From IMG/VR virus record IMGVR_UViG_3300023440_000006, positions 1 through 61,594 of that record: 61,594 nucleotides of DNA; one strand, given 5' to 3'. Positions 8,182-35,526 of the stretch are shown piece after piece; within the stretch, counting starts at the first letter, position 1, and each line of letters starts with the position of its first letter. The notes under the pieces are model-generated. The model did no database searches, had not been told where the DNA came from, and was given only the letters and a program-made list of their open reading frames with translations. The stretch is from a virus. Both the position numbers and the translations under genes were made by a program.

Positions 8182-9240
8182 ATGAGAAATTTTACAAGAA
8201 TCAATAGAGACTATATTCAAATCAACGCATTATTTCTTCAACCAACAAATATGTGTGCCCTAAACTGTAAGGGGTGCTATGTAAAAGAATGGGGCAAGAA
8301 TACTGAGATTATATCTATGTCTGCTCATCTCCCATCTTTTATCTGGGAGCGCTTCATTTATAAAATGTCAGGCATGATTACTGAGAATTTTCAAGCTAAC
8401 CAGATTACTTTTGCCCTAGATACACTGCCAAGCGACTTAGCAATCAAAACCTATATGAAAGACCTAGCTTATATTTATATGGATGTAGCTAAAGGAGCTA
8501 AGTACCAAGGACTTGATACTGAATTTCATATCACTACTCAATCTTTAAACAATATCTTTAATCAAACCTCTTATCATTGTCTCGATAATTTAGGGTCTAT
8601 TGATATGTTGAGTATCAGTAATCTTAATCAAAAAGATATTGTTAACTTAATTAACTTAAAGGATAGGTATCCAGATCTACATATTAATTGGAACCTCCAT
8701 CCTATCGAAATTCGGGATGAAAGTACCTATAAACAAATAGTTAGTGAAATTGCAGTTATCGCTAAATTTGTTGACAGTATCTATTTTGTAATGCATAAAC
8801 CAGATCTCGGTAGAATGCTAGATCAAGATATAGTTAGACAATACTTTAAATTATTTAAGATTATTAAAGAAACATTGCAGAATGATACTAAAATAAAAGA
8901 TCCAAACATGATTCAGATTGATGGTTGCGTCAAAGATTCTAAAATGTTTGCAGATGAAGTGAACGGTGGATGTAGTAGTAATATTTCTCGGTTTCAGGTC
9001 TGGCCTGATGGATCCGTAAGTGGTTGCCCATACGCTCATAGACCAATTACTAAGTCTTGTTGGGATGATGATCCGATCTTGGAGCTTGGTGACGATATTG
9101 TTGAGAATATGCTAAATAATATCAGAGCTGCTGCTAAAATATATCAATTTGATCAATGTAAGATTCCTAACAGTTTATATCCAGATTCAACACCTGTTCT
9201 GCGTCGAGAGCACCGAGCATTACAGATCTTTGAGGATTAA
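8182..9240 (+). CDS. Radical SAM enzyme of unknown substrate
   Basis: The 352-residue protein has the radical SAM cluster motif CX3CX2C as MCALNCKGCY (Cys25, Cys29, Cys32), which binds the [4Fe-4S] cluster that cleaves S-adenosylmethionine. Several cysteines near the C-terminus (NGGCSSN, SGCPYAH, KSCWDD, QCKIP) around a QVWPDGSVSGC segment resemble a SPASM/twitch-type auxiliary cluster domain, common in peptide- or protein-modifying members. The gene begins right after a strong terminator and is weakly provided with a ribosome binding site; the next gene starts one base after its stop. The spacing does not match QueE. Substrate cannot be told. Confidence 0.8.
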   Translation: MRNFTRINRDYIQINALFLQPTNMCALNCKGCYVKEWGKNTEIISMSAHLPSFIWERFIYKMSGMITENFQANQITFALDTLPSDLAIKTYMKDLAYIYMDVAKGAKYQGLDTEFHITTQSLNNIFNQTSYHCLDNLGSIDMLSISNLNQKDIVNLINLKDRYPDLHINWNLHPIEIRDESTYKQIVSEIAVIAKFVDSIYFVMHKPDLGRMLDQDIVRQYFKLFKIIKETLQNDTKIKDPNMIQIDGCVKDSKMFADEVNGGCSSNISRFQVWPDGSVSGCPYAHRPITKSCWDDDPILELGDDIVENMLNNIRAAAKIYQFDQCKIPNSLYPDSTPVLRREHRALQIFED

Positions 9241-13705: not shown

Positions 13706-15709
13706 GTGGCAAAAGGTGCATTAAGTAGATTCTCTGCATACCTCAAAAGCGTTGCACTTAAGATTTTCGGACAAGCGGAGTCCGAAGCAAGAGAATCTGT
13801 TGGCCATTCAGTCAATGTAGATGCACAGCCTGCTGGGTCTGTTACTCACCAGTTTGCATTTGGATCTGATGCTGAAGATCAACTTAGTTACGCAGTAAAT
13901 GTTAGTCAGATTGACGTAACTAGTGGTCTTAATCATCAGCTCAATGTCAGCGAAATTAATGATTTTGAGCAAGATCTTAATCATCAATTCAATGTTCATC
14001 AGATTAATGATTTTGAGCAGGATGTAGGTCATCAGCTTAATTTACTAGGCGATGCCTCTGGCTTTCTGGTCCATCAACTTGGAGTAGTATTTAGGGCCTC
14101 TAGCGGGCTGTCACATGAATTCACAGTAAGTGGTATTCATACAACTGCAAATATCAATCATCAATTCAACATGAACATAGACAGAGATAATCTGTCTCAT
14201 CAGTTCAGTGCTATTGGTGTAGGCATAGATGAAACAAGTCTAAGCCATCAGCTTGATGTAACAGTTAATCTTCCAAGCTATGTCCTCACACATCAGTTCT
14301 ATGTAGAACAATTTCTAGACATTGAAGGGGTCACTATCAGTGGTGACTACCGTATTGTTCCAGAAGGGGGGACGCAGACTGTCTCTGGTGTTTCAGAGTC
14401 ACTCCTTGGCATCGACGGTACAAGATATAGCTACGCAGATCCTGCTGTAAACAATATAACGAGTACAGGTACTTGGTTTGGTATAGACTCTAGTCAAGTC
14501 AATCCAACTGTTGCTAGCGGACTGTCAGAGGCTGACTTTCTTTTTGGTTCGTTTGTATTTGAGAACGAGCCAGAAAACTTAATTGCAGGCTCTGGCTTAT
14601 GGTCAACAGCTCAGGGCTTTTTAACATTACCCGAGCATAACTTTGATGTTCTGGTAGATAACCAAGCTTGGCAGTTACCTGTTATTAAGACAGGTGTAAG
14701 TGGGTGGAGAGGGCTTAACGACTTTAATGCCTCTCTGCCCAATATGTTGGTAGAGCCAGGAGAGAATCCTTTCGATGCCTTCTTTGGCAGGCAAGAAACA
14801 ATAAGCGGTGTTCTGCAGGAAATTGTAGGTTTCTTTGGAGTCTTTGAAACTACAGTATTTCCTGGTAATCAAGACCCAGCTGCTTTAATCGGTCCTACTC
14901 CAACGCTTATAGAAGTAAACGATCCACTTGAGTTTTCTGAAGGCAATATTTTAGGTCAAGTCTTTTTCCCCCTAGATAGAGACTTTTTAATTTCAGGTAT
15001 CTATATAACTAATACCAGTGGTGGAGGCCTTTCTGTATCAGACAATACTGTACGTCTTGGTTTTACACTTGGTGAGGCTAATCCACAGCCATCCTTGCTC
15101 GAATTTAATCTTGGTGTAAATACACCATCAGGAGTATATGATCAAACACAAGATACAAATCAATGGCTGGCTGGTGGTTTATTCAGAGACTTTAATACTG
15201 CGCCGTTACAACCTGGAGATAATGTAAGAGGACAAATTAGGGTTTTTGAACCTAAAAACTCCACTGACTTTACGCCACCCGTTCCATCTGGACTGGCACA
15301 GATGGCATCTGACGATGGGGTCAACCTATTAACTGCAGGCAACTTGATCTGGCCAGATTTTGAAGATACTGAAGTTACTCTTGATCTTCTAGTAGAGATT
15401 CTTGCTTCTCTTAACAGAAGTACACTACCTCATGGAATAAGCTTGCAGGCTATGGCCAAAAACAGAAGAGGTCAAATTATAAAGCTTTATGTAGATGGAA
15501 CTACTAATGAAATTAGAGCTACTCTTGAGAATATCCCAGGAGTCTTTGCCGATGGAGCTACTCAGGGTACACTGATTCTAAAAAGAGACGCAACTATAAG
15601 TCCAGTGGTCACTGCGACTAATCTATCTAATAGATCAATAGTCGTAGTAAATCAGGAAGAAAAGAACCAACCTGGACGGTATGTGATTATTGACGAGGAG
15701 GGTAGCTAA
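13706..15709 (+). CDS. Large virion protein with His-Gln repeat array
   Basis: The 667-residue product starts with a GTG after GGGAGG. Residues about 30-205 hold a dozen short repeats of the form L-x-H-Q-(F/L)-x-V, for example LNHQLNV, LNHQFNV, LSHQLDV and LTHQFYV. The remainder is beta-rich and Gly/Asn/Ser-rich, and ends IIDEEGS. This is the make-up of a tail-fibre or capsid-fibre protein. The C-terminal segment SIVVVNQEEKNQPGRYVII resembles the end of the next small protein. A short CCTAG/CTAGG inverted repeat lies at 13678-13693, just ahead of the ribosome binding site. Confidence 0.75.
   Translation: MAKGALSRFSAYLKSVALKIFGQAESEARESVGHSVNVDAQPAGSVTHQFAFGSDAEDQLSYAVNVSQIDVTSGLNHQLNVSEINDFEQDLNHQFNVHQINDFEQDVGHQLNLLGDASGFLVHQLGVVFRASSGLSHEFTVSGIHTTANINHQFNMNIDRDNLSHQFSAIGVGIDETSLSHQLDVTVNLPSYVLTHQFYVEQFLDIEGVTISGDYRIVPEGGTQTVSGVSESLLGIDGTRYSYADPAVNNITSTGTWFGIDSSQVNPTVASGLSEADFLFGSFVFENEPENLIAGSGLWSTAQGFLTLPEHNFDVLVDNQAWQLPVIKTGVSGWRGLNDFNASLPNMLVEPGENPFDAFFGRQETISGVLQEIVGFFGVFETTVFPGNQDPAALIGPTPTLIEVNDPLEFSEGNILGQVFFPLDRDFLISGIYITNTSGGGLSVSDNTVRLGFTLGEANPQPSLLEFNLGVNTPSGVYDQTQDTNQWLAGGLFRDFNTAPLQPGDNVRGQIRVFEPKNSTDFTPPVPSGLAQMASDDGVNLLTAGNLIWPDFEDTEVTLDLLVEILASLNRSTLPHGISLQAMAKNRRGQIIKLYVDGTTNEIRATLENIPGVFADGATQGTLILKRDATISPVVTATNLSNRSIVVVNQEEKNQPGRYVIIDEEGS
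13799..14310 (+). repeat. Coding array of about 12 His-Gln motifs
   Basis: Twelve degenerate units spaced 14-20 codons apart, centred on H-Q followed by a hydrophobic residue: GHSVNV, THQFAF, SYAVNV, NHQLNV, NHQFNV, GHQLNL, VHQLGV, SHEFTV, NHQFNM, SHQFSA, SHQLDV and THQFYV. Two adjacent units share EINDFEQDLNH and QINDFEQDVGH, a recent duplication. Confidence 0.8.
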
Positions 15710-15882
15710 TGGCAGTTACAGCAGCAGTAATTGAGGTCGATGTAGATGATATTGAGAACTCTATTAATACACAGTTAGCAACATTAGCTATCAACGCCAC
15801 TGACTTTGTTCAGGCTATTGTCTTATCTGAACAAGATAAGAATCGAAGAGCTAAGGTTGTAATTTTTTACGAGATTCCATAA
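15709..15882 (+). CDS. Small unknown protein between virion gene and DnaE block
   Basis: A 57-residue frame (MAVTAAVIEVDVDDIEN to KVVIFYEIP) linked by TAATG overlap to the upstream virion gene and one base from the next start. GAGGG lies at the right distance upstream. Its second half, QAIVLSEQDKNRRAKVVIF, resembles the C-terminus of the upstream virion protein, so it may be a duplicated domain or an assembly partner. Confidence 0.6.
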   Translation: MAVTAAVIEVDVDDIENSINTQLATLAINATDFVQAIVLSEQDKNRRAKVVIFYEIP

Positions 15883-16248
15883 ATGTCACTAAAAGCTATA
15901 AAGCCTATCCCGCAGCTCTTGCGGGAGGCTAAATCTATTCCTAAAAAGAAAACAAATATTGACCTAGCTGTTTGTACATCAGCAGGAATTATTCTTGATG
16001 TAAAAATCACTTCTGATATTGAAGAAGCCCTAAAGAATAGGGAGCATGTTCCTATATATTTTCTAGCTGGTATTAAGATATTGAATTACATGGTAGCGCC
16101 CTCTTATCAATCAGAGTTACGATCACGATATGGGGACCTCAAATCGGAAGATATGATTAATCAATTAATTAATTATCTTGAAAGCAAGAAGGGAAGACCT
16201 GTTGTACAAAGAGAGGCACAAGAGGCTAACGCTCTCCTACTGGAATAA
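15883..16248 (+). CDS. Unknown small basic protein
   Basis: A 121-residue protein with a Lys/Pro-rich N-terminus (MSLKAIKPIPQLL), a hydrophobic stretch HVPIYFLAGIKILNYMV that is too short and mixed to be a sure membrane segment, and a charged helical C-terminus. No family is recognised. It lies immediately before the PHP gene. Confidence 0.6.
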   Translation: MSLKAIKPIPQLLREAKSIPKKKTNIDLAVCTSAGIILDVKITSDIEEALKNREHVPIYFLAGIKILNYMVAPSYQSELRSRYGDLKSEDMINQLINYLESKKGRPVVQREAQEANALLLE

Positions 16249-16251
16249 ATA

Positions 16252-17217
16252 ATGAATCTAAATGATTTCTGCCATCTACACACCCACAGTGTATACAGCA
16301 TTCTTGATGGCGAGAACCAAATTAATGCACTGGTCAAAAGAGTAAAAGAATTAGGAATGAATCAGATTGCGCTCACTGATCATGGCACAATGATGGGCAT
16401 TCTTGAGTTCTATAAAACCTGCCTAAAGAACAATGTAAAACCAGTCCTCGGCGTAGAGGCGTACATTACAAATGATGAAGATGGAATCCCAAAAGAGCAA
16501 AGAAATAGAGACAATAACCATCTTGTTATGGTGGCAGAGACTGAAGAAGGTCTTCGTAACCTTTTCTGGCTTACCTCTAAGGCACAAACAGAGAATTTCT
16601 ATTTCAAACCAAGAATATCAAAGAAAAATCTTACTTCAGAACGAGTCAGAGGGATAATCGCTACAAGTGCATGTCTAGGAAACGAGGTCAATCGAGTAGG
16701 CACATTCGATCCTGATACTAGGCTATATTCTAATCGGGAAAAGATGGAAGAAGCTGCGTGTTGGTATCATAAGGCCTTTGAAGGCAATTACTTCCTCGAG
16801 ATTCAAGACAATGATGATGAGGCAGGACAGCAGCTTGCTTATAACAATGTCATCAAAGATATCGCACAAAAGAGTAATATTCCACTTGTAATCACAGCAG
16901 ATGCTCACTACACACAGATAGAAAGCAGTGAAACGCATACCCTTATTATGGCCATGCAATTAAAGAAAGCGCTAAAGGATTACGAGGAAAACAGCAACAT
17001 GAAGTATGGTCCCTGGTTCTTCGTTAGAAGTCCAGAACAAATGCTTGAGGCTGCACGTAAGTATGATGCTGAAGAAGCATTTTGGAATGCATGTGACATT
17101 GGGAAAAGATGCAATGTTAGCATAGAGATTGGTAATTATAAAAATCCAATATTCGATATACAGTCACAACCAGATTACGAAGACTTTAAAAAGTTTGAAG
17201 GAGTAGATAATGAGTAA
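16252..17217 (+). CDS. DNA polymerase III alpha, separate PHP domain subunit
   Basis: The 321-residue protein matches the N-terminal PHP domain of bacterial DnaE and ends where that domain ends. The metal-binding motifs look intact: HLHTH at residues 8-12, ALTDHG, NNHLVMVAE, ATSACLGNEV, FLEIQDND and TADAHYT. In many bacterial DnaEs with a full set, the PHP domain is a metal-dependent 3'-5' proofreading exonuclease, whereas E. coli has lost key ligands. Here it would supply proofreading to the polymerase encoded from 17864. It overlaps the next gene by eight bases. No intein motif is visible at its end. Confidence 0.88.
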   Translation: MNLNDFCHLHTHSVYSILDGENQINALVKRVKELGMNQIALTDHGTMMGILEFYKTCLKNNVKPVLGVEAYITNDEDGIPKEQRNRDNNHLVMVAETEEGLRNLFWLTSKAQTENFYFKPRISKKNLTSERVRGIIATSACLGNEVNRVGTFDPDTRLYSNREKMEEAACWYHKAFEGNYFLEIQDNDDEAGQQLAYNNVIKDIAQKSNIPLVITADAHYTQIESSETHTLIMAMQLKKALKDYEENSNMKYGPWFFVRSPEQMLEAARKYDAEEAFWNACDIGKRCNVSIEIGNYKNPIFDIQSQPDYEDFKKFEGVDNE

Positions 17218-17476
17218 TCTAGAAGATTCCATTCTTACATTGCAAGAAGAAATCGTTGTTCGTGTTGAGGCCATTCAGGCTCAAAAAGAAGATAAGAAAA
17301 CAATTATGAAGTCCTATAATGAGAACATTAAGGGACTAGAGGCAGAGCGAGATGCCTTGATCCAAGAGCTGAATGCAGTCAAGGAACAAATTAAACAAAA
17401 TCACCTAGTTGCTAGTGCTGATAAGATTATTGAGGAAAATGCACGACCAGGTGATGAAGACTTAAGCCTCATTTGA
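17210..17476 (+). CDS. Small coiled-coil protein between the two DnaE genes
   Basis: An 88-residue protein, nearly all coiled coil (EEIVVRVEAIQAQKEDKKTI to IQELNAVKEQIKQN), ending in an acidic tail DEDLSLI. The start GGAGTAGATAATG lies inside the PHP gene end. No family is recognised. Its place suggests a bridging or accessory subunit of the split polymerase, which is inference. Confidence 0.6.
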   Translation: MSNLEDSILTLQEEIVVRVEAIQAQKEDKKTIMKSYNENIKGLEAERDALIQELNAVKEQIKQNHLVASADKIIEENARPGDEDLSLI

Positions 17477-17486
17477 GAGGTGAGAT

Positions 17487-17864
17487 GTGATTGGCAAAAA
17501 GAAAAGATCCAAAAGAAAGCGGGGACCAGATGGGAACCTTTATACTGCAGAAGAGCTTGCATCTAGATTTTCAGATGAAAGTCATCCAGAGCAAGCTAAG
17601 AGTACAATAATTAAAACACCTGAACAACAAACTAGAGAGTCACAGGACAAACCTGCTATCCAAGAGAAGTCAACCAAAAGAGAAAGAGACTCCGCACCAA
17701 CAATAATCATCAGCTACATCGGTAGTAATGGTCAGAGAAATACAAAGTCATTTCAATGTGCGAATATAAAGCTTGATGAATATAAAGTCACTGAGATGAT
17801 GAGATCGGGCCCTAAGACAACTCTACATATTTCAGTAGAGGCCGATGTCGTTGAGGTAATGTAG
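17487..17864 (+). CDS. Small basic protein between the two DnaE genes
   Basis: A 125-residue protein starting with GTG six bases after GAGAGG. Residues 3-12 are strongly basic (GKKKRSKRKR), the middle is a disordered, Gln/Thr/Glu-rich linker and residues about 75-125 form a beta-rich domain (PTIIISYIG, TTLHISVEADVVEVM). It overlaps the polymerase start by one base, so both are probably translated together. A DNA- or clamp-binding adaptor is possible but unproved. Confidence 0.6.
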   Translation: MIGKKKRSKRKRGPDGNLYTAEELASRFSDESHPEQAKSTIIKTPEQQTRESQDKPAIQEKSTKRERDSAPTIIISYIGSNGQRNTKSFQCANIKLDEYKVTEMMRSGPKTTLHISVEADVVEVM

Positions 17865-20509
17865 TGGATGAGTTAGCTAGATACTACATGTATAAAGCCA
17901 AGAAAGGCTTGGCTGAAAGAATTCCAAAATTACCCTATAAGGTTAATGAGAAGGAATATCAGGATAGACTAGATTATGAAAATAAGATCATCATACAAAT
18001 GGGCTATCCTGGCTACTTCTTAGTTGTTCAAGACTTTATTAACTGGGCTAAAAATCAAGGAATTTTAGTAGGTCCAGGACGGGGCTCTGGGGCTGGTGCA
18101 TTGGCTTGTTTTGCACTCGGGATCACCAATATTGATCCAATTCCATATGGACTTATCTTTGAGCGATTTTTAAATCCTGCTCGTGTCAGCATGCCTGACC
18201 TTGACATTGACTTTCCTAAGGCAAAACGAGATCTTGTCATTCAATATGTTCAAGACAAGTACGGACATGATAAGGTCGCACAGATTGGTACGTTTGGAAC
18301 ATTCAAGGCAAAAGCAGCAATTAAAGCAGTAGCTCGAACTCTCGGACATAAAATCATTGTGGCTGAAAAGCTTACAAAGCTTTGGCCAAAACCAAAACAT
18401 GGCAGGGAGATTAAATTCGAAGAGGCACTTGAAGACGTATCTAAGCTTAGAGAATGGTATGATTCTTCTACTCCAGAAGGAGAGATCCTTCGATGGGCGC
18501 ATAAGTGTGAAGGACGAGTTGCATCGTTTGGAATCCACGCATCAGGTGTAGTTATTAGCAATGAGCCGCTATATGAGACAGTTCCGCTAGCTATAGGTAG
18601 GCATGGTGAGACAGTCACTCAGTGGGACATGAATTGTATAGAAGATGTAGGTCTAATCAAATTTGATTTCTTAGGTCTAAAGAATCTTGATACAATTCAA
18701 CTCACAATGAACCATATCAAGAGACGATATGGTTTAGATATTGATATTGAAAACCTTCCACTTGATGATAGCAAGGTTTATTCAAATCTGAGAAAGGGAG
18801 ATAATATTGGTGTCTTTCAGCTTGAATCATCTTCAGGCATGAAAGACCTGCTTGTTAAAATTCGTCCAGAGAATATAGAAGATATCACTGCTCTAGTGGC
18901 CATGTACAGACCAGGCCCGCTCAATAGTAATAAAATGCCAGACTATCTTGCCTGGAGAGCTGGTCTAACTGAACCTACATATCATCATCCAAGCTTAGAA
19001 CCTATTCTTGCCTCTACTGGTGGTTGGATTGTATATCAAGAGCAGGTCTTACAGATTGCTAGAGACCTGGCAGGTTATGATCTCGCAGGAGCTGACCTAT
19101 TGCGTCGTGCAGTAGGTAAGAAAAAAGAAAAAGAAATGGCTGAGCATCTTGGTAGATTTACTAAGGGCATGGTAGATAATGGCTATACCAAGGATTTGGC
19201 CAATACGCTATGGAGCGAGATTAAAGCGTTCGCAGATTATGGCTTTAATAAAAGTCATGCATTTTCGTATGCCATGATTGCGTATTGGTGTGCCTATCTT
19301 AAAACCTATTACCCAACAGAGTTTATGGCTGCTGCGCTGACATGTGACAGTGGAAATATGGACCAGATGATAGTCTACCTACAGGAATGTAAGAGGCTAG
19401 GCATCGACGTATTGCCACCTGATATTAATGACTCAGAGCTTGAATTCACTCCATTGGACGGTCAAATACGATTTGGACTTACGGCAATTAAAAACCTTCG
19501 AGAAGGGCCAGGACGACATATTTTAGATGTCCGTAGTGAAGGTGGTAAATTTCAGAGTATTTTTGATTTTGCAAGAAGGATTGACCTAGGACTCGTCAAC
19601 CGGAAGAAGCTCGATTCCTTAGTATTGTCTGGCGCATTTGATTTTACTGAACAAAATCGTAGTACCCTACTACAGGCTATTGAAGATATTCTTGAATACA
19701 AGAAAGAGCAGAAGAGATACGAAAAGAAACTAGAAACTTTTGAAAAGAAGTCTGAAGCTTACCTTGGACGCCTTGCAGCAATTGAGCGAGGTGATAGGTC
19801 AGCTAATGGTGAGAAATTAAAATCTTTAAAGAAACCTGTACAGCCAAAAGCTCCTGAGTTCCCAACATATATGCCAGAGGCAGAGTTGGCTAAACAGCTT
19901 ATCCTCCATAAGGAAAAAGAGCTTACTGGCTTCTTTATGTCAGGTCATCCATTAGATGGATTTAAAGATAAGATCTGTAGAACAATTTCATCCCTAAAAG
20001 ATGATAAACCTGAACAAATCATTATGATTTGTCTACTTTCAGAACTGCAAATAAAAGAGTCCAAGAAGAAGCAGAGATATGCATTTGCTCGTTTCGAAGA
20101 CTTAACAGGAAATGTAGAAGGTGTAATATGGCCTTGGCTCTATAAGCAATGTAGTGATCAGCTTCTTTTAAATGTACCAATACGAATTGGAGCAAAGGTT
20201 ACCTACACAGACGCAGAGGTAGATGAAGACTCTAAGCAAGATGAAGTTATTCCTTATCTAGAGATCAAGTCAGTAGAGCTACTAGAGAGACCAACAGAAG
20301 ATAGTCAGAACATTACGATCGAAGTACCATTAAAGCTAAGCAGCGTTAAAGAAGTTAAAAAATCTTTAAACAAGCATGCCGGTAAAGCTGGTGTTGCTTC
20401 TGTAAGATTTAGGCTGCAGTCAGATGGTATACTAGCGGTTCCTAGGGTATTTGGTATTAATCAAAATGGAAGAGCAATCAAAACAGAAATACTCAGAAGA
20501 GGTAAATAG
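17864..20509 (+). CDS. dnaE: DNA polymerase III alpha, polymerase subunit lacking PHP
   Basis: The 881-residue protein starts where the palm/thumb part of DnaE starts. The catalytic aspartates are Asp114 and Asp116 in MPDLDIDFP and Asp328 in SSSGMKDLLVKIRP. It has GPGRGSGAGALACF, the fingers motif GWIVYQEQVLQIARDLAGYD with ADLLRRAVGKKK, a helix-hairpin-helix/beta-binding region and a C-terminal OB domain (RYAFARFEDLTGNVEGVIWP). It copies the phage genome 5'-3'. GTG start overlaps the upstream stop. The tail after the OB domain is short, so a tau-binding region may be missing. Confidence 0.93.
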   Translation: MDELARYYMYKAKKGLAERIPKLPYKVNEKEYQDRLDYENKIIIQMGYPGYFLVVQDFINWAKNQGILVGPGRGSGAGALACFALGITNIDPIPYGLIFERFLNPARVSMPDLDIDFPKAKRDLVIQYVQDKYGHDKVAQIGTFGTFKAKAAIKAVARTLGHKIIVAEKLTKLWPKPKHGREIKFEEALEDVSKLREWYDSSTPEGEILRWAHKCEGRVASFGIHASGVVISNEPLYETVPLAIGRHGETVTQWDMNCIEDVGLIKFDFLGLKNLDTIQLTMNHIKRRYGLDIDIENLPLDDSKVYSNLRKGDNIGVFQLESSSGMKDLLVKIRPENIEDITALVAMYRPGPLNSNKMPDYLAWRAGLTEPTYHHPSLEPILASTGGWIVYQEQVLQIARDLAGYDLAGADLLRRAVGKKKEKEMAEHLGRFTKGMVDNGYTKDLANTLWSEIKAFADYGFNKSHAFSYAMIAYWCAYLKTYYPTEFMAAALTCDSGNMDQMIVYLQECKRLGIDVLPPDINDSELEFTPLDGQIRFGLTAIKNLREGPGRHILDVRSEGGKFQSIFDFARRIDLGLVNRKKLDSLVLSGAFDFTEQNRSTLLQAIEDILEYKKEQKRYEKKLETFEKKSEAYLGRLAAIERGDRSANGEKLKSLKKPVQPKAPEFPTYMPEAELAKQLILHKEKELTGFFMSGHPLDGFKDKICRTISSLKDDKPEQIIMICLLSELQIKESKKKQRYAFARFEDLTGNVEGVIWPWLYKQCSDQLLLNVPIRIGAKVTYTDAEVDEDSKQDEVIPYLEIKSVELLERPTEDSQNITIEVPLKLSSVKEVKKSLNKHAGKAGVASVRFRLQSDGILAVPRVFGINQNGRAIKTEILRRGK

Positions 20510-20669
20510 TAAGGATGAAAACCCTAATAATATAGGGACCTTAGGTGGAATGATATTGCTTAGTTTACCAATAGTGGGTATAGCTGCTATCATAGGCCTA
20601 TTTAAGGGGCTCGAGTTATTCAGTGAACTTACTGAAGATTCTGAGCAAAAAGAGGTTAACAAAACATGA
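20466..20669 (+). CDS. Small single-pass membrane protein
   Basis: A 67-residue protein with a charged N-terminus, one strong membrane helix (MILLSLPIVGIAAIIGLF) and an acidic C-terminal tail. It starts within the end of the polymerase gene; the ATG at 20466 has a weak ribosome binding site, and the internal ATG at 20549 with AGGTGG is an alternative. The stop overlaps the next start as ATGA. Function unknown. Confidence 0.55.
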   Translation: MEEQSKQKYSEEVNSKDENPNNIGTLGGMILLSLPIVGIAAIIGLFKGLELFSELTEDSEQKEVNKT

Positions 20670-22114
20670 GATGGACTAACGATGAGCTAGAGTTTCTAGC
20701 CACCTATGGACCACATGATAGAGCTATAGACGTATTTCAGGATTACAGAGTAAGGTTCGGAGATAATCGTTCTTATCACTCAGTTCAAAAAAAGCTTAGA
20801 TCATTATTCGAAGATCCAATTGAAGATGATGAAGATGATAATGAAGAAGGACTAGATACCTGGGAAGACGCCCTTGATAGTGAAGGTATTAAGCTTAAAA
20901 ACTATTCATACGATAAGGAAGCGGATGAGTATATTATTCCAACCCGTAGAGGCCTCCTTCATGTCTCAGGTGGACGAATTCGTCAGCTTCTAAGCGAGTA
21001 TTCTAACTATGGCGCCAAGAAAACCATCAATATGGTTGCGAACGAATTTGGTTGGGCTAGACATTGTATTATTGAAGTACTTCGCCGGCTAGGCAAAACC
21101 CATGATTCTTCTCCATTTACAGATGAACAGATCCTTGAAGAGCCTGTTGAAGAACTCGTCAAGGATATGGCCCGTAAAAAGGAGAATCGCATCATCGCTA
21201 ACGCTATCAAACAGGAACAGCGTAAGATTCAAGAAGATGCGAATAAGTGGCGTAACATAGAGCATGCCATCTCTGAAGTATTTGAACTCAGAGATTATGA
21301 AACTACCAAACCACTAAAATCTTTTAACCTTAAAGCACCAAAAAAGAAGTTCGATGCACTTCTCTATCACACTGATGCTCATGTTGGTAAGCTTGCACAG
21401 GGATGGGAATATGAAGAGTGTCGAAGACTTATTCTTGAGACCGCTGAACGCGCATTATCGCATGTTGTTCGATATGGAAAACCAAACCGTATTATTACAG
21501 GCATTGGTGGAGACTGGTCTAATATTGACAACCCAGCCAATGGGACTACTCGAGGCACTCTTCAGAGAAGTAATGGAGAATGGTTTGAGATCATGGAACA
21601 GGCTAATCAAATACAACTTGATCTTCTCCGACTCTATGGACAGGTAGCTCCTACTGAAGCTTATTGTGTACCGGGTAATCACGATAGAATGTGGTCTGTA
21701 ATGGCAGGTTCTTGGTTGGCTAAACTATTTGAAAATCATCCTAGCGTGAAGGTTCATACCTTTAAACCAAGACACTATATTGAGTCTGGTAAGAACATGA
21801 TTATGCTTACCCATGGCGACGGAGCTAAACCTAAAGACTACCCATCCATTATGGCAGCAGAAGCTGCAGAGATGTGGGGCAGAACTAAGTATCGCTATGC
21901 ATATCATGGTCACTTGCATCATGAGCTTATTAGAGAGTTTAGGGGAGTAAGCGTTAATCAGATGCCTAGTGTGAGTCCAGAAGATGAGTGGCATGTCCAT
22001 GAAGGTTATGTTGGGAACCGTCGTGCTCTTGCTGCCCATATACATGATTGGAATGCTGGTCGTGTTGCAATCTTTAACGTAGCTATTGATGAAAACAATA
22101 ATGTCGTAGGTTAG
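20666..22114 (+). CDS. Metallophosphoesterase with N-terminal Myb-like DNA-binding region
   Basis: The 482-residue protein has calcineurin-type motifs in order: YHTDAHVGK, GGDWSNID, VPGNHDRMW, LTHGDGAKPK and YHGHLHHE, giving a two-metal phosphoesterase site. The first ~50 residues (RWTNDELEFLATYG to SVQKKLRSL) look like a SANT/Myb-type helix-turn-helix, and residues 90-140 carry a second helical module resembling a winged or HTH fold. A role as a DNA nuclease or phosphatase in replication or repair fits the neighbourhood. It is not the SbcD type, as no SbcC gene is near. Confidence 0.8.
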   Translation: MRWTNDELEFLATYGPHDRAIDVFQDYRVRFGDNRSYHSVQKKLRSLFEDPIEDDEDDNEEGLDTWEDALDSEGIKLKNYSYDKEADEYIIPTRRGLLHVSGGRIRQLLSEYSNYGAKKTINMVANEFGWARHCIIEVLRRLGKTHDSSPFTDEQILEEPVEELVKDMARKKENRIIANAIKQEQRKIQEDANKWRNIEHAISEVFELRDYETTKPLKSFNLKAPKKKFDALLYHTDAHVGKLAQGWEYEECRRLILETAERALSHVVRYGKPNRIITGIGGDWSNIDNPANGTTRGTLQRSNGEWFEIMEQANQIQLDLLRLYGQVAPTEAYCVPGNHDRMWSVMAGSWLAKLFENHPSVKVHTFKPRHYIESGKNMIMLTHGDGAKPKDYPSIMAAEAAEMWGRTKYRYAYHGHLHHELIREFRGVSVNQMPSVSPEDEWHVHEGYVGNRRALAAHIHDWNAGRVAIFNVAIDENNNVVG

Positions 22115-22147
22115 CTTGTATAAAAGTTAACAATAAGAATTTTTAGA

Positions 22148-22178
22148 TATGATGATGCCAACCCAATCCATCATCATA
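22148..22178 (+). promoter_or_regulatory. Perfect 10-bp hairpin just ahead of a ribosome binding site
   Basis: TATGATGATG (22148-22157) and CATCATCATA (22169-22178) are exact reverse complements around an 11-base loop CCAACCCAATC. The stem ends one base before GAGG, the ribosome binding site of the small gene starting at 22192. No T-run follows, so it looks like a translational control element or protein-binding hairpin rather than a terminator. Confidence 0.5.
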
Positions 22179-22191
22179 GAGGCAACTATTT

Positions 22192-22359
22192 ATGCACATC
22201 ATAGACGTAATCGATGAAATTGCAGATAAGCTAACAGAGCTTCAAGATGATCAGATTGCTGATATCTATAATCAGTTAGCAGAATGGGGAGTTGTTAACT
22301 ATACACTTGAATCAGCTGGTGAAGGACAGTTTAATGTTCAAGGAGATGAGGATGAGTGA
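22192..22359 (+). CDS. Small unknown protein upstream of thyX
   Basis: A 55-residue acidic frame, MHIIDVIDEIADKLTELQ to NVQGDEDE, with GAGG at a suitable distance and a hairpin immediately upstream. It overlaps the ThyX start by eight bases. It has two predicted helices and no recognised family. Confidence 0.6.
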   Translation: MHIIDVIDEIADKLTELQDDQIADIYNQLAEWGVVNYTLESAGEGQFNVQGDEDE

Positions 22360-23224
22360 TTATCCTGAGATTTTAGTTTTAGATCATGGCTTCGTACGTC
22401 TTATTGATCATATGGGTGATGATCAACGTATCGTAGATGCAGCCCGAGTCTCGTATCAAAAGGGAACAAAGAAGGTTTCTACTGATAAAGGTCTTATACG
22501 CTATTTACTTAGAAACTTACACACGACACCCTTTGAAAAGGTTCGTTTTGAATTTCATGTTAAACTGCCGATCTTTGTAGCGCGACAATGGATGCGACAC
22601 AGGACAGGAAGTTTTAATGAAGTTTCTGGCAGATATAGTAAGCTTCCACAAGAGTTTTATGTACCTGAGCCACTTAGAAAACAATCTAAAACTAACCGGC
22701 AAGGATCATCTTCTGAAATTGTTTCTACTATATATCTAGCAGATGGCGAAGATGACCCCGGCCATTTTATTAGATCGAGTTTTAATAATTCTTATGCAGA
22801 CTACCAGCATCTTCTTGAGGCCGGTGCAGCTAGGGAATTAGCTCGTGGGGTGCTACCACTAAACATCTACACAGAGTTCTACTGGACAGTAGATCTGTGG
22901 AACTTAATGCATTTTTTGAGACTACGGCTAGATGCACACGCACAGCTAGAAACAAGGCTCTATGCTGAAGCTATCTTCACGCTTTTAAATAAGCATTGTG
23001 ACCTAGAGCTCTCATTAGGCGCATTCCAAGACTATATCCTTGATCGACCAGATATATCTAAGTTTGAGATGAATATCATTAAAGAAACTCTAAAAGAGCT
23101 ACAAGCAAGTTCTATTACATCGATGTCACTAGATGAAATCCTCAAAGAGAAGATTCAAGATAATCTTGAGATGAGTGATCGTGAAAAGCGAGAGAGTAAG
23201 CTGTTAGCACTACTGGCGGAGTAA
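22352..23224 (+). CDS. thyX: FAD-dependent thymidylate synthase ThyX
   Basis: The 290-residue protein holds the ThyX signature RHRTGSFNEVSGRYS at residues 82-96, plus TPFEKVRFEFH and a C-terminal LRLDAHAQLETRLYAEA that fits the substrate-binding region. It makes dTMP from dUMP using methylene-tetrahydrofolate and reduced FAD. The ATG at 22352 is six bases from AGGAG; the ATG at 22346 is one base away, so the later start is chosen. It is slightly longer than typical ThyX because of a helical C-terminal tail. Works with dUTPase and NrdJ to supply dTTP. Confidence 0.95.
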   Translation: MSDYPEILVLDHGFVRLIDHMGDDQRIVDAARVSYQKGTKKVSTDKGLIRYLLRNLHTTPFEKVRFEFHVKLPIFVARQWMRHRTGSFNEVSGRYSKLPQEFYVPEPLRKQSKTNRQGSSSEIVSTIYLADGEDDPGHFIRSSFNNSYADYQHLLEAGAARELARGVLPLNIYTEFYWTVDLWNLMHFLRLRLDAHAQLETRLYAEAIFTLLNKHCDLELSLGAFQDYILDRPDISKFEMNIIKETLKELQASSITSMSLDEILKEKIQDNLEMSDREKRESKLLALLAE

Positions 23225-23226
23225 GC

Positions 23227-24270
23227 ATGTGGAATCTTGTTGACGAGACTGAAGGTCTAACATTTGATGACGTATTAATTAAGCCTAATCAGAGTAGCAT
23301 TGTTAGCAGAAAATCTATCGATATTTCATGGAAGTTAGGGGATTTTAAATTCGATATTCCTGTCATCTCTTCTAACATGACTACCGTCACTGAAATAGAT
23401 ATGGCATTGCAGATGGCTGATCTTGGTGGACTGGGCATTATCCATCGATTCATGCCAGCTGAACTACAATTAGAACAAACAGAATTTTTTAAATCCTTAA
23501 ACCATAGCGCTCCAGTTTGTCATTCAGTTGGATCAATGTTGAATGATAAAAAGAGAATCCGCTTCCTAATTGATAACAAGGCAGCAGACATCCTCTGTGT
23601 AGATATTGCTCATGGCAATAATACAGCACATATGGAACCTACTTTGAAGTTCATTAGAGATTTGGGATTTGAAGGACCAATCATTGCAGGCAATACTGCT
23701 GGTGTGGCATCTGCCAATAATCTTATTAACTGGGGTGCCGATATGGTAAAGATTGGCATTGGACCTGGTTCTGTATGCACTACTAGAATTAAGACAGGTG
23801 TTGGTATACCGCAGCTCACAGCTATTGGACAGAATAGTTATAATTCTCACATTCCAGAAGGTCTTAGTATACCTACTATTGCAGATGGAGGTATCAGATA
23901 TCCAGGAGACGCCGCAAAAGCATTGGGAGCTGGTGCAACAGCTGTTATGATAGGAGGTATGTTGGCAGGAACTGATTGTGTACCAGGCTGGTCAGACAAC
24001 CATCAAGACTTGCTACATGCAGGTAACGCAAGTGAACTAGTTAAACATCAATTTCAACAACATAATTTTAATGCCGAAGGCGTTGCAAAACACGTTGAGC
24101 GTAAACCTATTGGCAGTACAGCTCAGGTTATTAGAGACATCTGTGAGGGGATTCGCTCTGCGATGTCTTATGTCGGTGCCCATACATTAAAAGAATTTTA
24201 TGAGAAATGTACGTTCATTCGTGTAACCTCAAATACAGTTCTTGAAAATCATCCCCATTTGAAGGGATGA
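23227..24270 (+). CDS. guaC: GMP reductase (IMPDH/GMPR family)
   Basis: The 347-residue protein has the IMPDH/GMPR barrel: [12 protein letters not shown], the catalytic loop [17 protein letters not shown] with Cys184, and [19 protein letters not shown]. Length without a CBS insert and the C-terminal [19 protein letters not shown] followed by TFIRV match GMP reductase rather than IMP dehydrogenase. It would convert GMP to IMP with NADPH, feeding adenine nucleotide synthesis. It starts two bases after thyX. IMPDH activity cannot be ruled out from sequence alone. Confidence 0.8.
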
Positions 24271-24286
24271 ACTGAGGTGGCTTACT

Positions 24287-25174
24287 TTGACCCAGAAATG
24301 CACTGGAGCACAATATACTGGAGTCTGTGTAACAGAAGTAGACAGACAGATTATAGATGAAGTTTACAAAGAGAAAAAAGTTGAGTTATGGGATAAGCGA
24401 CGCTTTTATCCCAATATATTTGTTTATTTAAGACCTAATGATGGACAAGGTAATGGTGCTATCACTATTGCTCGAGATAAAAAGGGGGAGAAATATCTAG
24501 AGCTGCTCCCATCTAAGGGTCTATCTGCTTTTGGCATTACACCAAAAAATAAAGAACAGATTATGGCTATGTCAGCCTTACTAGACCCCACGATTCCCCT
24601 TTCTATCATGACAGGTAGGGCAGGTACAGGTAAAACATTGCTAGCCATTGCTGCAGCATTACAGACTGTAGAAGATGGTGTTTATGATAGGATTCTCATC
24701 ACTAGGCCAATGAGTCAGGTAGGAAAATATAACCTTGGAGCGTTGCCTGGAGATATAGATGAAAAATTTGGTCCCTATCTAGAGAACTATCTTACAAACA
24801 TTCAGCAACTTGTTGGAGATGACAAAACAACTATTGATGTTTTAATCAATAAAATGAACATCACCGCCATGCCCTTGCAATTGATACGCGGCGCCTCTTG
24901 GACAAAAACCTTTATCATTGCAGATGAAGTGCAGGTATTAGATCATGACGAAATGCTTACACTAGGAACCCGTATTGGTGAGGGGTCTAAGCTCGTTATA
25001 CTTGGCGATCTAAGACAGCGTGATGAAAAAATTGCACGAACAAAGACTGGTCTCTATAAGTTAATGAATGACATGAGAGCTAAGCAATCATCCCTTATTT
25101 CAGCAATTGAATTACTGAAATGTGAGAGAAGCGAACTTGCCGCCCTCATTGCTGATATTTTTGAGGATGACTAA
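24287..25174 (+). CDS. PhoH-like ATPase
   Basis: The 295-residue protein has Walker A GRAGTGKT at residues 110-117, the PhoH-type ITRPMSQVGKYNLGALPGD segment and Walker B IIADEVQ with Asp213-Glu214, where most PhoH proteins have DEAQ. PhoH proteins are superfamily-1-like RNA/DNA ATPases common in marine phages, with roles suggested in phosphate stress or RNA handling. The N-terminal PIN nuclease domain of PhoH2 types is absent. The start is TTG 24287, nine bases after GAGG. Confidence 0.85.
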   Translation: MTQKCTGAQYTGVCVTEVDRQIIDEVYKEKKVELWDKRRFYPNIFVYLRPNDGQGNGAITIARDKKGEKYLELLPSKGLSAFGITPKNKEQIMAMSALLDPTIPLSIMTGRAGTGKTLLAIAAALQTVEDGVYDRILITRPMSQVGKYNLGALPGDIDEKFGPYLENYLTNIQQLVGDDKTTIDVLINKMNITAMPLQLIRGASWTKTFIIADEVQVLDHDEMLTLGTRIGEGSKLVILGDLRQRDEKIARTKTGLYKLMNDMRAKQSSLISAIELLKCERSELAALIADIFEDD

Positions 25175-25466
25175 TGTTAATTTAAATCGTCCATTAAATC
25201 TTGAACCTCCTCATTCACCAGAGGATGGCGATGTTTACTTAGATATTAATGAAAACACTATAATGATCTTCTTAGGCAATAGGTGGGTGCATATTACTTC
25301 ACCTTCTCTTCAGGGGGATGACACAGATAATACTAATTATAGAGATGCTGAAGAATCTCTTGACCCTCTCGGATTAATAGCAGAAGCTCTCGAAGAGAGA
25401 ACAAGCGTAGAGAAGATCGAAAAAGAACTTCAAGAACGTAGAAGAAATCCATTATTTCTATTCTGA
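25167..25466 (+). CDS. Unknown small acidic protein
   Basis: A 99-residue protein with a beta-rich N-terminal half (DGDVYLDINENTIMIFLGNRW) and a charged helical C-terminus rich in Glu and Arg. The N-terminal pattern recalls short virion-associated modules in which a GDVYLD strand is followed by a W. The ATG overlaps the PhoH stop. No family is assigned. Confidence 0.6.
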   Translation: MTNVNLNRPLNLEPPHSPEDGDVYLDINENTIMIFLGNRWVHITSPSLQGDDTDNTNYRDAEESLDPLGLIAEALEERTSVEKIEKELQERRRNPLFLF

Positions 25467-32866: not shown

Positions 32867-33058
32867 CTACTGCTGGGCTCTCCATTTAGACCAAGATACA
32901 TGCCCACCCTTTCCTGTTCCTGCAGACAGGATTTTATTAAGTTTATCAGAACCACACTTCTCACACTTAATCTCTTGATTTTCATCTCTGCTATCAAGTA
33001 GGATTTCAGTTACATGTTTACACTCCGTACATTTGAAATCTTGTATCCTAAAGCTCAT
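32867..33058 (-). CDS. FmdB-like small zinc-ribbon protein
   Basis: A 63-residue protein with CTECKHVTE and IKCEKCGSDKLNKIL, the two-knuckle zinc ribbon of FmdB-type putative regulators, ending in a basic tail WSKWRAQQ. Such proteins are common and poorly understood. GGAGGG precedes the ATG, and the start overlaps the primase-helicase stop as ATGA. Confidence 0.7.
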   Translation of the reverse strand: MSFRIQDFKCTECKHVTEILLDSRDENQEIKCEKCGSDKLNKILSAGTGKGGHVSWSKWRAQQ

Positions 33059-35526
33059 GAAGTGAACCCTCCAGTTGGCAATACGTTACGCCGATTATTA
33101 GAGTTATTGTTAATCACCGCTTCTCTTTCAGCCAATGCAACATCAAGAGGATGTGGCTTAAAGTCTGAACTAGGCGGATGGAATTTGAAGTAGATACTGC
33201 TTTTAAATGAGCTGATCTTGTTCTTCCCGACAATCATTTCAATAATAGGACGCCGAGTAGCTCCATTTCTCTGGGGCGCCATGTGATATGTATGCTCTTC
33301 AGCCCTATCACCCTTTTCGTGCATCTCATTATATAGGTGACAGATAAGGTTAGCATCATATTCCATCTGTACAGTCTCAGAAATATTGTCGTTAGTAGGA
33401 CGTGTACCAGCAGGTAGCTTAGTATATTCCATAGTACAGAACACAGGGATATGGAATCTAGTAGCCATGTTTTTAACTACTGTTGACATGATTTTAAATC
33501 TAGTTCTTTCATCTCCCATGCTCTCGAAGTCACGCAGTTTGTGAAAGTTGTCTAGAATATAGACAATCTGCCGATCTGGATATTTGTCCTGATAGTATTT
33601 AATCAGAGACTCCGCATAACCAAGAGACATGCCGTCATTAGCATCCTTAATCACTAGACGGCCTTTTCTTGTAAGATCTATAAGTCCTGAATAACCAGCT
33701 TCGCGGCGATATTTGATATCGTCTCCAACGATGTCTCCCTCGTGGCGCCTATAGAATTCTGGGTTTTTAACTTCATTAATCTGCAGCTCTGTGCTGCCCT
33801 CTGAGATACAGACAAATTTTGGGAGTACCTGTTCCTTAGTGTCGTCAATAGTGTGATAGATAACGCAAGCATTATTTTCCTTTTCGTGCACTGCAATTGA
33901 GTGTGCAATCTTGCACATTAAAGAAGTTTTGCCAGTATTAGCCTTTCCACCTACAACCAGCATTACATCCTTGCGACAGTCACCAGCTAGAACAATCTCT
34001 TGTAGCTCGTGTAAATCTTCGCCAAGTACAAAGCCCTGAAATTCACCAGTCCTCTCTTCCTCCTGACACTTCAGGTCTTGAATAAATCTTAGTGTACCTT
34101 CCTCAGAGAAGTTATCCTGATCATAGGCAGCTGAAAGGCTGTATAGTTTGCCTCCGGTCTCATTTAGAATTGTTTCTGCCTCAGACGGTGTCTTCTGTAA
34201 TTCACGAATAGCTTTATCAATAACAGACTGCCGCTCTCTATCTTTTTGACGTTCCTTGTCATTTACTAGACGGTTAAGCTCAGCCTGTAGCGTCTTAATA
34301 GAAAAGCCGGTATGCCGTGCCAAATCCTGGAGCATTTTTTCTTGAGAGATATGGGACGGCTCACTGACGACATGTGGAATCATCAGCTTACACATCTGCT
34401 CAGGATCTGCCTCTTCTTCAAACCGATTTAGTCTCCACTGAAAGGCTGTCCAAGGTACAAGCTCTTGGAAAGCCTCTACTCCAAAATGTCTAACATATTC
34501 GTCGGGATCATCTCCACCAGGGATGACAACAACCTTAACCGTAAGATCTTTATGTTGAGCAAAGCGCGTATCTAGAAGTGCTTCTGTTCTAGATTGTCCT
34601 GCTTCATCTCCATCCAAACAAAGTACTACATCGTAAATGCCGTGTTCTTTTAGAAGGAAAAGATGGTCATCAGTAAGGGCTGTACCACAAGCAGCAACAA
34701 CACGATTAAACCCATTTATCTGGCAGCTGACGACATCTGAATACCCCTCCATAATATAAAGAGGCCCCTCGTGTCGCTCTCTAAGGGCGTTATCAAGCCC
34801 ATAGAGTCGCTTACCCTTTTGATAGATGTTACACTTGACACCTGTGGTTTTCTGATTGACGTATTTAGGTCCTTCTTTGCCTAGATTGCGAGCAGCAAAA
34901 CCAACTGGACGACCAAATTCGTCTTTAATTGTGAAGATAAGGTGTCCAGGAGCGAAGATATCCTTGCGCCCAAGGTCTACATCATCTAGAAACTTAGCAG
35001 CAAATCCTAGTCCCTTAAGGTGTTCACGAAAGGTAGAGCTATCAGTTACAAAGCCGATGCCAAGCTTACGAAGGCTATCGTCAACCTCAAGCCATCCTCT
35101 GCGATCAAATTCTGCGCTGATATCATCAGGCTTATTTTTCCAGCCAGTGATGAATTCGTAGGCATATTTGTATGCTCGATAGGTGTCAAGCTCATACAGC
35201 TCTTCTTCGCTAAGCTCAGTATGCTCAATTTCAATGCCAAATTTTTCAGCCAGATACTGAAGTGTTTCAGTTATGTAGCCATTACCAGAAAGAGGCTTAC
35301 CTTCAAATAAATTAACTGCATCAAAAATGTCACCGGTTGCACCACACCCGTGACAGAAGAATCGCAGCTCATTAGGCCTAACGATGGACATGGATGGGCT
35401 TGAATCATTGTGATTTGGATGGATACACTTGAAGTTCTTATCAGTATCAATCCCCTGTTCTTGTAAATATTCAATTAGGTGCTTTTGAATCTTTTTAGTA
35501 GTTTCATCGAAATTCTTGATTTTCAT
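33055..35526 (-). CDS. Bifunctional DNA primase-helicase
   Basis: The 823-residue protein joins an N-terminal CHC2-type zinc finger (Cys34, His39, Cys58, Cys61), a TOPRIM primase core (YIMEGYSDV and CLDGDEAGQS near residue 310) and a C-terminal DnaB/T7 gp4-like RecA helicase with Walker A GGKANTGKT at residues 526-534 and Walker B VYILDNFH near 665. It would unwind the fork and lay primers for the DnaE polymerase. A charged linker of about 100 residues separates the two halves. The order follows T7 gp4 and the mitochondrial Twinkle family, though much longer. Confidence 0.92.
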   Translation of the reverse strand: MKIKNFDETTKKIQKHLIEYLQEQGIDTDKNFKCIHPNHNDSSPSMSIVRPNELRFFCHGCGATGDIFDAVNLFEGKPLSGNGYITETLQYLAEKFGIEIEHTELSEEELYELDTYRAYKYAYEFITGWKNKPDDISAEFDRRGWLEVDDSLRKLGIGFVTDSSTFREHLKGLGFAAKFLDDVDLGRKDIFAPGHLIFTIKDEFGRPVGFAARNLGKEGPKYVNQKTTGVKCNIYQKGKRLYGLDNALRERHEGPLYIMEGYSDVVSCQINGFNRVVAACGTALTDDHLFLLKEHGIYDVVLCLDGDEAGQSRTEALLDTRFAQHKDLTVKVVVIPGGDDPDEYVRHFGVEAFQELVPWTAFQWRLNRFEEEADPEQMCKLMIPHVVSEPSHISQEKMLQDLARHTGFSIKTLQAELNRLVNDKERQKDRERQSVIDKAIRELQKTPSEAETILNETGGKLYSLSAAYDQDNFSEEGTLRFIQDLKCQEEERTGEFQGFVLGEDLHELQEIVLAGDCRKDVMLVVGGKANTGKTSLMCKIAHSIAVHEKENNACVIYHTIDDTKEQVLPKFVCISEGSTELQINEVKNPEFYRRHEGDIVGDDIKYRREAGYSGLIDLTRKGRLVIKDANDGMSLGYAESLIKYYQDKYPDRQIVYILDNFHKLRDFESMGDERTRFKIMSTVVKNMATRFHIPVFCTMEYTKLPAGTRPTNDNISETVQMEYDANLICHLYNEMHEKGDRAEEHTYHMAPQRNGATRRPIIEMIVGKNKISSFKSSIYFKFHPPSSDFKPHPLDVALAEREAVINNNSNNRRNVLPTGGFTS

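Follow-up and report, generated by a model that had tools for sequence, protein, structure and literature searches.

Polymerases of the C family (DnaE-type) are described as having, without exception, all their domains on one polypeptide, with the PHP domain strictly conserved (PMC3666897), and PHP has elsewhere been called universally present (PMC12926913). The viral DNA analysed here, IMG/VR virus record IMGVR_UViG_3300023440_000006 (61,594 nucleotides, the whole of which is referred to as the window), departs from this design. Between positions 16,252 and 20,509, one gene encodes the PHP domain and another the PHP-less polymerase (Pol), with two small genes lying between them. The palm, fingers and helix-hairpin-helix domains are present with their catalytic aspartates and the nine-ligand metal site of PHP is supplied in trans, but the single polypeptide is lacking. 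The features of the locus and of the genes directly downstream are as follows; handles such as L001 denote loci recovered in the searches described below.

16252..17217, + strand: PHP subunit, 321 residues; Pfam PF02811 (E=2e-43) and TIGR00594 positions 1-287; best PDB match 4iqj (Pol III alpha); AlphaFold2 model with a mean predicted local distance difference test score (pLDDT) of 78; C-terminal helix DYEDF
17210..17476, + strand: 88-residue gene, apparent passenger; its ATG overlaps the PHP stop; coiled-coil appearance, judged from the sequence
17487..17864, + strand: 125-residue gene, apparent passenger with no assigned function; homologue in L001 alone
17864..20509, + strand: Pol subunit, 881 residues, a PHP-less DnaE by Pfam and TIGR00594 (292-1022), PDB match 2hpi (E=1e-56); its N-terminus is the PHP-palm linking helix and its start is conserved across relatives
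17894..18676, + strand: palm region of Pol (Pfam DNA_pol3_alpha, 7e-90), with catalytic D112, D114 and D268
18683..19183, + strand: fingers of Pol (PF17657, 6e-55)
19400..19669, + strand: helix-hairpin-helix (HhH) domain of Pol (HHH_6, PF14579, 6e-27)
19658..19786, + strand: long helix, Pol residues 599-641, at the site of the QxxLF clamp motif of nearer fused relatives
20451..20669, + strand: small gene between Pol and the metallophosphoesterase, encoding a hydrophobic stretch
20666..22114, + strand: DP1-like metallophosphoesterase (MPE), phrog_704, adjoining the split Pol; PDB profile match to the PolD small subunit

Taken together, the two products cover one complete DnaE. PRK05673 is matched over 4-293 by PHP and over 296-1105 by Pol, and since TIGR00594 passes from one protein to the other between positions 287 and 292, the break falls at the PHP/palm border with no domain lost. 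The three aspartates of Pol are invariant across the alignment, and we take them to be the counterparts of E. coli D401, D403 and D555. All nine metal ligands of PHP are in place (H10, H12, D19, H44, E69, H90, C141, D217 and H219) and form the HHDHEHCDH pattern that is the published criterion for an active site (PMC12926913). The genes follow each other closely: the ATG of the 88-residue gene overlaps the PHP stop by 8 nucleotides, a gap of 10 nucleotides leads to the 125-residue gene, and the GTG start of Pol overlaps the stop of the latter by 1 nucleotide. No promoter or terminator signal exceeding chance was found in 15600-22300. One continuous dnaE frame, which an earlier reading of this DNA from its letters alone (the sequence-only reading) had named as the observation that would overturn it, is excluded, as PHP and Pol lie in different frames with stops in between. 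That reading had described two separate proteins making up one DnaE, intact PHP motifs, three catalytic aspartates, a break at the PHP/palm border, tight gene coupling and a junction without an intein; the exact reading frames and profile matches bear out each of these points, and no intein domain was detected on PHP or Pol.

Where a phage DnaE is fused, the linker between PHP and palm is of the type LPxFPTPDGMTEDDYLxxLAxEGLEER, with 7-29 residues separating the two models. PHP of the split clade ends in ..PxFDI..DDYxEFLxW and Pol begins with MxxLxxYFxFKCxKGLxxR, so that each half has retained the linking helix in its own version. Both halves are under constraint. Between the window and L001, identity is 64% for PHP and 55% for Pol, nonsynonymous divergence (dN) is 0.32 and 0.41, and synonymous sites are saturated; the pairs L022/L023 and L002/L099 display the same selection pattern. 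Further, AlphaFold models were obtained from 7 aligned sequences for PHP and from 13 for Pol, the latter with a mean pLDDT of 84, and the PHP model matches Pol III alpha over its PHP part (4iqj, E 9e-20) better than it matches free PHP phosphoesterases. PHP also matches the ~310-residue chain of the E. coli alpha-epsilon chimera structures (4gx8, 4gx9), work which reportedly suggests that a PHP piece is able to fold outside the full polymerase.

The other observation that the sequence-only reading had named as overturning it, the lack of a conserved split in relatives, is excluded as well. IMG/VR was scanned by single proteins and alignments, and every open reading frame (ORF) was scored with hidden Markov models; PHP as a single-protein query gave no matches in IMG/VR, and alignment queries were required. 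Besides the window, 17 distinct IMG/VR contigs carry split PHP and Pol genes with the same break. Loci fused in one ORF made up 137 of 166 in the first batch and 49 of 86 in the second, where the split rows are mostly repeat views of already known contigs. Pol trees, with and without a mixture model, unite the window, 14 split contigs and L003 (a Pol-only fragment whose contig begins just upstream) in one clade of 16 rows with a support of 95 to 99; in an earlier, smaller tree the support of the window clade was 100. The same subclades appear in the PHP tree, where the 15 split PHPs have a support of 94, and the two genes are co-inherited. L206 could be an early branch and L210/L217 form a separate pair; the trees neither establish nor reject a single origin of all splits (window clade plus L210/L217). 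Near-identical or identical split sequences recur across samples (L099/L169, L059/L060, L185/L188, L217/L218), which counts against an assembly error. Moreover, wherever the PHP N-terminus of a split member of the window clade is complete, all its PHP ligands are retained, and in every split contig examined the order of PHP and Pol is constant and their spacing within ~2 kb, with differing inserts.

Several variations were noted among the relatives. The PHP of L210 (227-1231) and L217 (6001-6993) has a Cys/His-rich tail (CECHT..CLVH..C), and in L002 (3034-3140) the PHP frame is apparently shifted near its start, through either a sequencing error or a real change. Another recurrent break in phage DnaE (L189, L190, L191, L198, L201, L070) falls close to the catalytic MPDxDxDF motif, ~100 residues from the start of the palm, and no Rfam intron was detected at it in those of these loci that were searched. 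PHP/Pol loci of isolated phages, examined as a selection from 904 and 1350 match records, were fused or broken at sites other than this one, and a DNA-pattern search of GTDB, of limited sensitivity, returned ordinary fused dnaE or unrelated sites only, with no bacterial or prophage copy of the split.

PHP and Pol overlap directly in L022, L023, L024, L059 and L179, and varied genes or stretches separate them in window/L001, L002/L099/L101, L031, L175, L183 and L185. The two small genes that the sequence-only reading had remarked upon are indeed where it placed them, but they are not part of a conserved design, being shared with L001 only, at the same position and with 49% (88-residue) and 34% (125-residue) identity. 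A weak homologue of the 88-residue gene exists elsewhere in L040 and none was matched among phage records; the 125-residue gene had no Pfam, PHROG or phage-record match. Given their restriction at this position to the window and L001, both look like passengers, and they were dropped as candidate replicase subunits since the remaining split members lack them. The enzyme would first have been split into two genes that overlapped and were coupled in translation, with the insertions coming later.

The split clade also differs at the site of the clamp-binding motif. The HhH-OB interval of fused L015, L028, L030 and L086 contains QMSLF, QFDLF, QADMF or QVSLF, whereas the canonical clamp motif is missing from all 16 split-clade rows and a long helix lies there in the window. 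The motif is found in 30 of 102 other rows, and the Pol of L210 retains it. As the motif is also missing from many more distant fused phage enzymes, its loss is regarded as a feature of the clade and no causal tie to the fission is claimed. The beta-clamp domain PF02768 was not found in the 19 contigs, which are 'linear' records and possibly incomplete. DnaQ-type exonucleases among these contigs are confined to those of L002 and L099, and none was detected on the window contig. Elsewhere in the window, an 823-residue protein (33055-35526, - strand) is a fusion of a DnaG-type primase and a DnaB-type helicase, and nucleotide-metabolism genes at 22292-25466 and 43432-45579 encode ThyX, IMP dehydrogenase, a PhoH-like protein and ribonucleotide reductase.

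MPE lies directly 3' of Pol in 14 of 18 split loci and in the window (15/19), against 0/160 fused loci with enough downstream sequence; given that the split rows are related, this linkage amounts to few independent events. Its coordinates are 8767-9921 in L001 and 8785-9948 in L022. The top PDB matches of the MPE profile are archaeal PolD small subunits (DP1, the proofreading subunit; 1.9e-8), the match spanning the nuclease core only, and no Mre11/SbcD appears among its PDB matches up to E=5. Of its ligands D237, H239, D283, N338, H339, H384, H416 and H418, seven are invariant and the eighth nearly so, and the set D,H,D,N,H,H,H,H agrees with the DP1 residues listed in PMC10721889. An SbcCD/Mre11-Rad50 nuclease should have an SbcC/Rad50 partner, and the SbcC-type ATPase PF13476 (AAA_23) was not found in the 19 possibly fragmentary contigs, the control search being positive in 14/14 genomes. 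At the MPE position, L099 has a DEDD-type exonuclease (RNase_H_2, 1.1e-9; seen via L170, a locus that overlaps it), and in L177 metallophosphoesterase is matched there weakly. By eye, the N-terminus of MPE appears to be a small helix-turn-helix/Myb-type domain. Hydrophobic genes similar in size to that at 20451-20669 occupy the same position in L001, L002 and L003, with no detectable sequence similarity.

Overall, the locus most likely encodes a two-part proofreading polymerase: a C-family replicase made of two separately translated subunits that would associate non-covalently, PHP serving a structural role and 3'-5' proofreading in trans. We give this reading a probability of roughly three in four, because PHP and Pol cover one complete DnaE model; because the same break recurs in the 17 contigs, within one Pol clade and matching PHP subclades; because the PHP ligands are intact and both halves constrained; and because order and proximity are kept despite different inserts. 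That the PHP model is nearer to the PHP of Pol III alpha than to free phosphoesterases, and that the window contig has no detected DnaQ-type exonuclease, point the same way. The fission site would be the short PHP-palm linker. Pol would provide DNA synthesis, and PHP would dock on it as in the fused enzyme, giving the usual Pol III alpha shape and stabilising the fold, while its metal site would excise mismatches in the 3'-5' direction; both the complex and the exonuclease activity are putative. MPE may act alongside as a second polymerase-associated exonuclease. Two considerations weigh against this reading. Unfolding of the E. coli enzyme is cooperative, and the enzyme requires an intact PHP (PMC3666897), so that a split enzyme would need a strong PHP-Pol interface, and MPE beside Pol is a second nuclease that might be the real proofreader.

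A more elaborate arrangement, tentatively entertained and clearly less probable, is a three-part, PolD-like replicase in which a PHP-less C-family Pol is joined by PHP in trans and by MPE, the latter as an additional nuclease subunit. Such a replicase would dispense with a beta clamp, and the helical insert would serve its assembly or processivity. It is unlikely, in our view, that PHP is bound to Pol mainly as a structural element while the DP1-like MPE (in L099 the DEDD exonuclease) does most of the proofreading. The adjacency of MPE to split but not fused polymerases, its best PDB match to the PolD proofreading subunit, its replacement by a DEDD-type exonuclease in L099 and the want of an SbcC partner in the 19 contigs would all suit this view. 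However, the nine PHP ligands stay conserved, in contrast to the decay reported where DnaQ proofreads (PMC3919608), identity between window and L001 is 26% for MPE against 64% for PHP, and MPE-like nucleases are annotated as repair nucleases in many phages. Less probable still is the release of PHP as an independent nuclease or phosphatase no longer bound to the polymerase: free PHP enzymes do exist and PHP here is a self-contained ORF whose active site is complete, but PHP remains beside Pol through deep divergence despite varying inserts, the two co-evolve as a pair, and the PHP of Pol III alpha is the best match of its model.

We consider it very improbable that an intron, a split intein or a frameshift reunites the two halves once they have been transcribed or translated. 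Inteins are common elsewhere in the family and introns are known in some phage dnaE genes. However, no Rfam intron was found at the break, in a search that recovered the group I intron of L020 as positive control, and neither an intein domain at the ends of PHP or Pol nor any other split-intein match was seen there. Both halves are complete, independent ORFs with start codons in between, and the conserved Pol start coincides with a start codon. A frameshift or sequencing error was rejected on the layout itself, as 646 nucleotides and two ORFs separate the differing frames of PHP and Pol and L001 has the same arrangement. Inteins or intein-like Hint inserts do occur within split genes, away from the PHP/Pol break, in the Pol of L031, L059, L179 and L183 and in the PHP of L101 (4648-6768), and the intron of L020 (Alicyclobacillus phage KKP_3916) lies at 8314-8647 in a fragmented dnaE. 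Gene decay or a sequencing or assembly artefact, of which the probable single frameshift at the L002 PHP start could be a sign, hardly merits credence given the 17 other contigs with the break, the identical copies in separate samples and the strong constraint on both halves.

The two-subunit reading invites comparison with several known systems. The phage pair has the domains of bacterial Pol III alpha DnaE1, from PHP to OB, with its active-site residues and fold; it differs in having PHP as a separate protein, no canonical clamp-binding motif and a helical insert before the OB domain. Cyanobacterial DnaE, with its Ssp/Npu-type intein, is likewise a replicative DnaE from two genes, but the phage halves lack inteins at their ends, are separated at the PHP/palm border and are not expected to be rejoined. 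DnaE is also spread over several ORFs in Bacillus phage G (gp329/331/339), Alicyclobacillus phage KKP_3916 and PHROG 7513 and 12219; in these, by contrast, the interruption falls within the catalytic core and, in KKP_3916, is due to a group I intron, and the DnaE pieces of PHROG 7513, 11165 and 12219 have borders unlike those of the window. The E. coli Pol III core (alpha with epsilon/DnaQ) similarly has its proofreading nuclease in trans, whereas here that nuclease would be the PHP domain itself, with no DnaQ family member detected on the window contig. Archaeal PolD (DP1 with DP2) also keeps polymerase and proofreading nuclease as separate subunits, and the phage polymerase has a DP1-like MPE beside it; it is nevertheless of the C family, PHP is additionally present and the association of MPE is putative.

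Among published surveys, one of bacterial enzymes notes splits by inteins as well as scattered fragments with frameshifts (PMC3919608), and another, dated 2024 and spanning 18,382 phage genomes and 947 C-family polymerases, refers in its main text to neither PHP nor a split enzyme (PMC11348598). Searches of the open-access literature brought up no phage in which PHP and Pol had been reported as split, and the locus is a real, conserved domain-border fission of a replicative polymerase that this literature has apparently not described. Newly seen as well are the loss of the clamp motif together with the long helix in the split clade, the MPE linkage, and the failure to find clamp or SbcC in the 19 contigs. 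PolD is the only DNA polymerase known with the DP1 nuclease fold (PMC10721889), and the MPE linkage raises the question of whether a PolD-type proofreader may also serve a bacterial-type polymerase. Finally, since a separate PHP can be added, removed or mutated without altering the Pol chain, the split enzyme offers a direct handle on the role of PHP in Pol III alpha.

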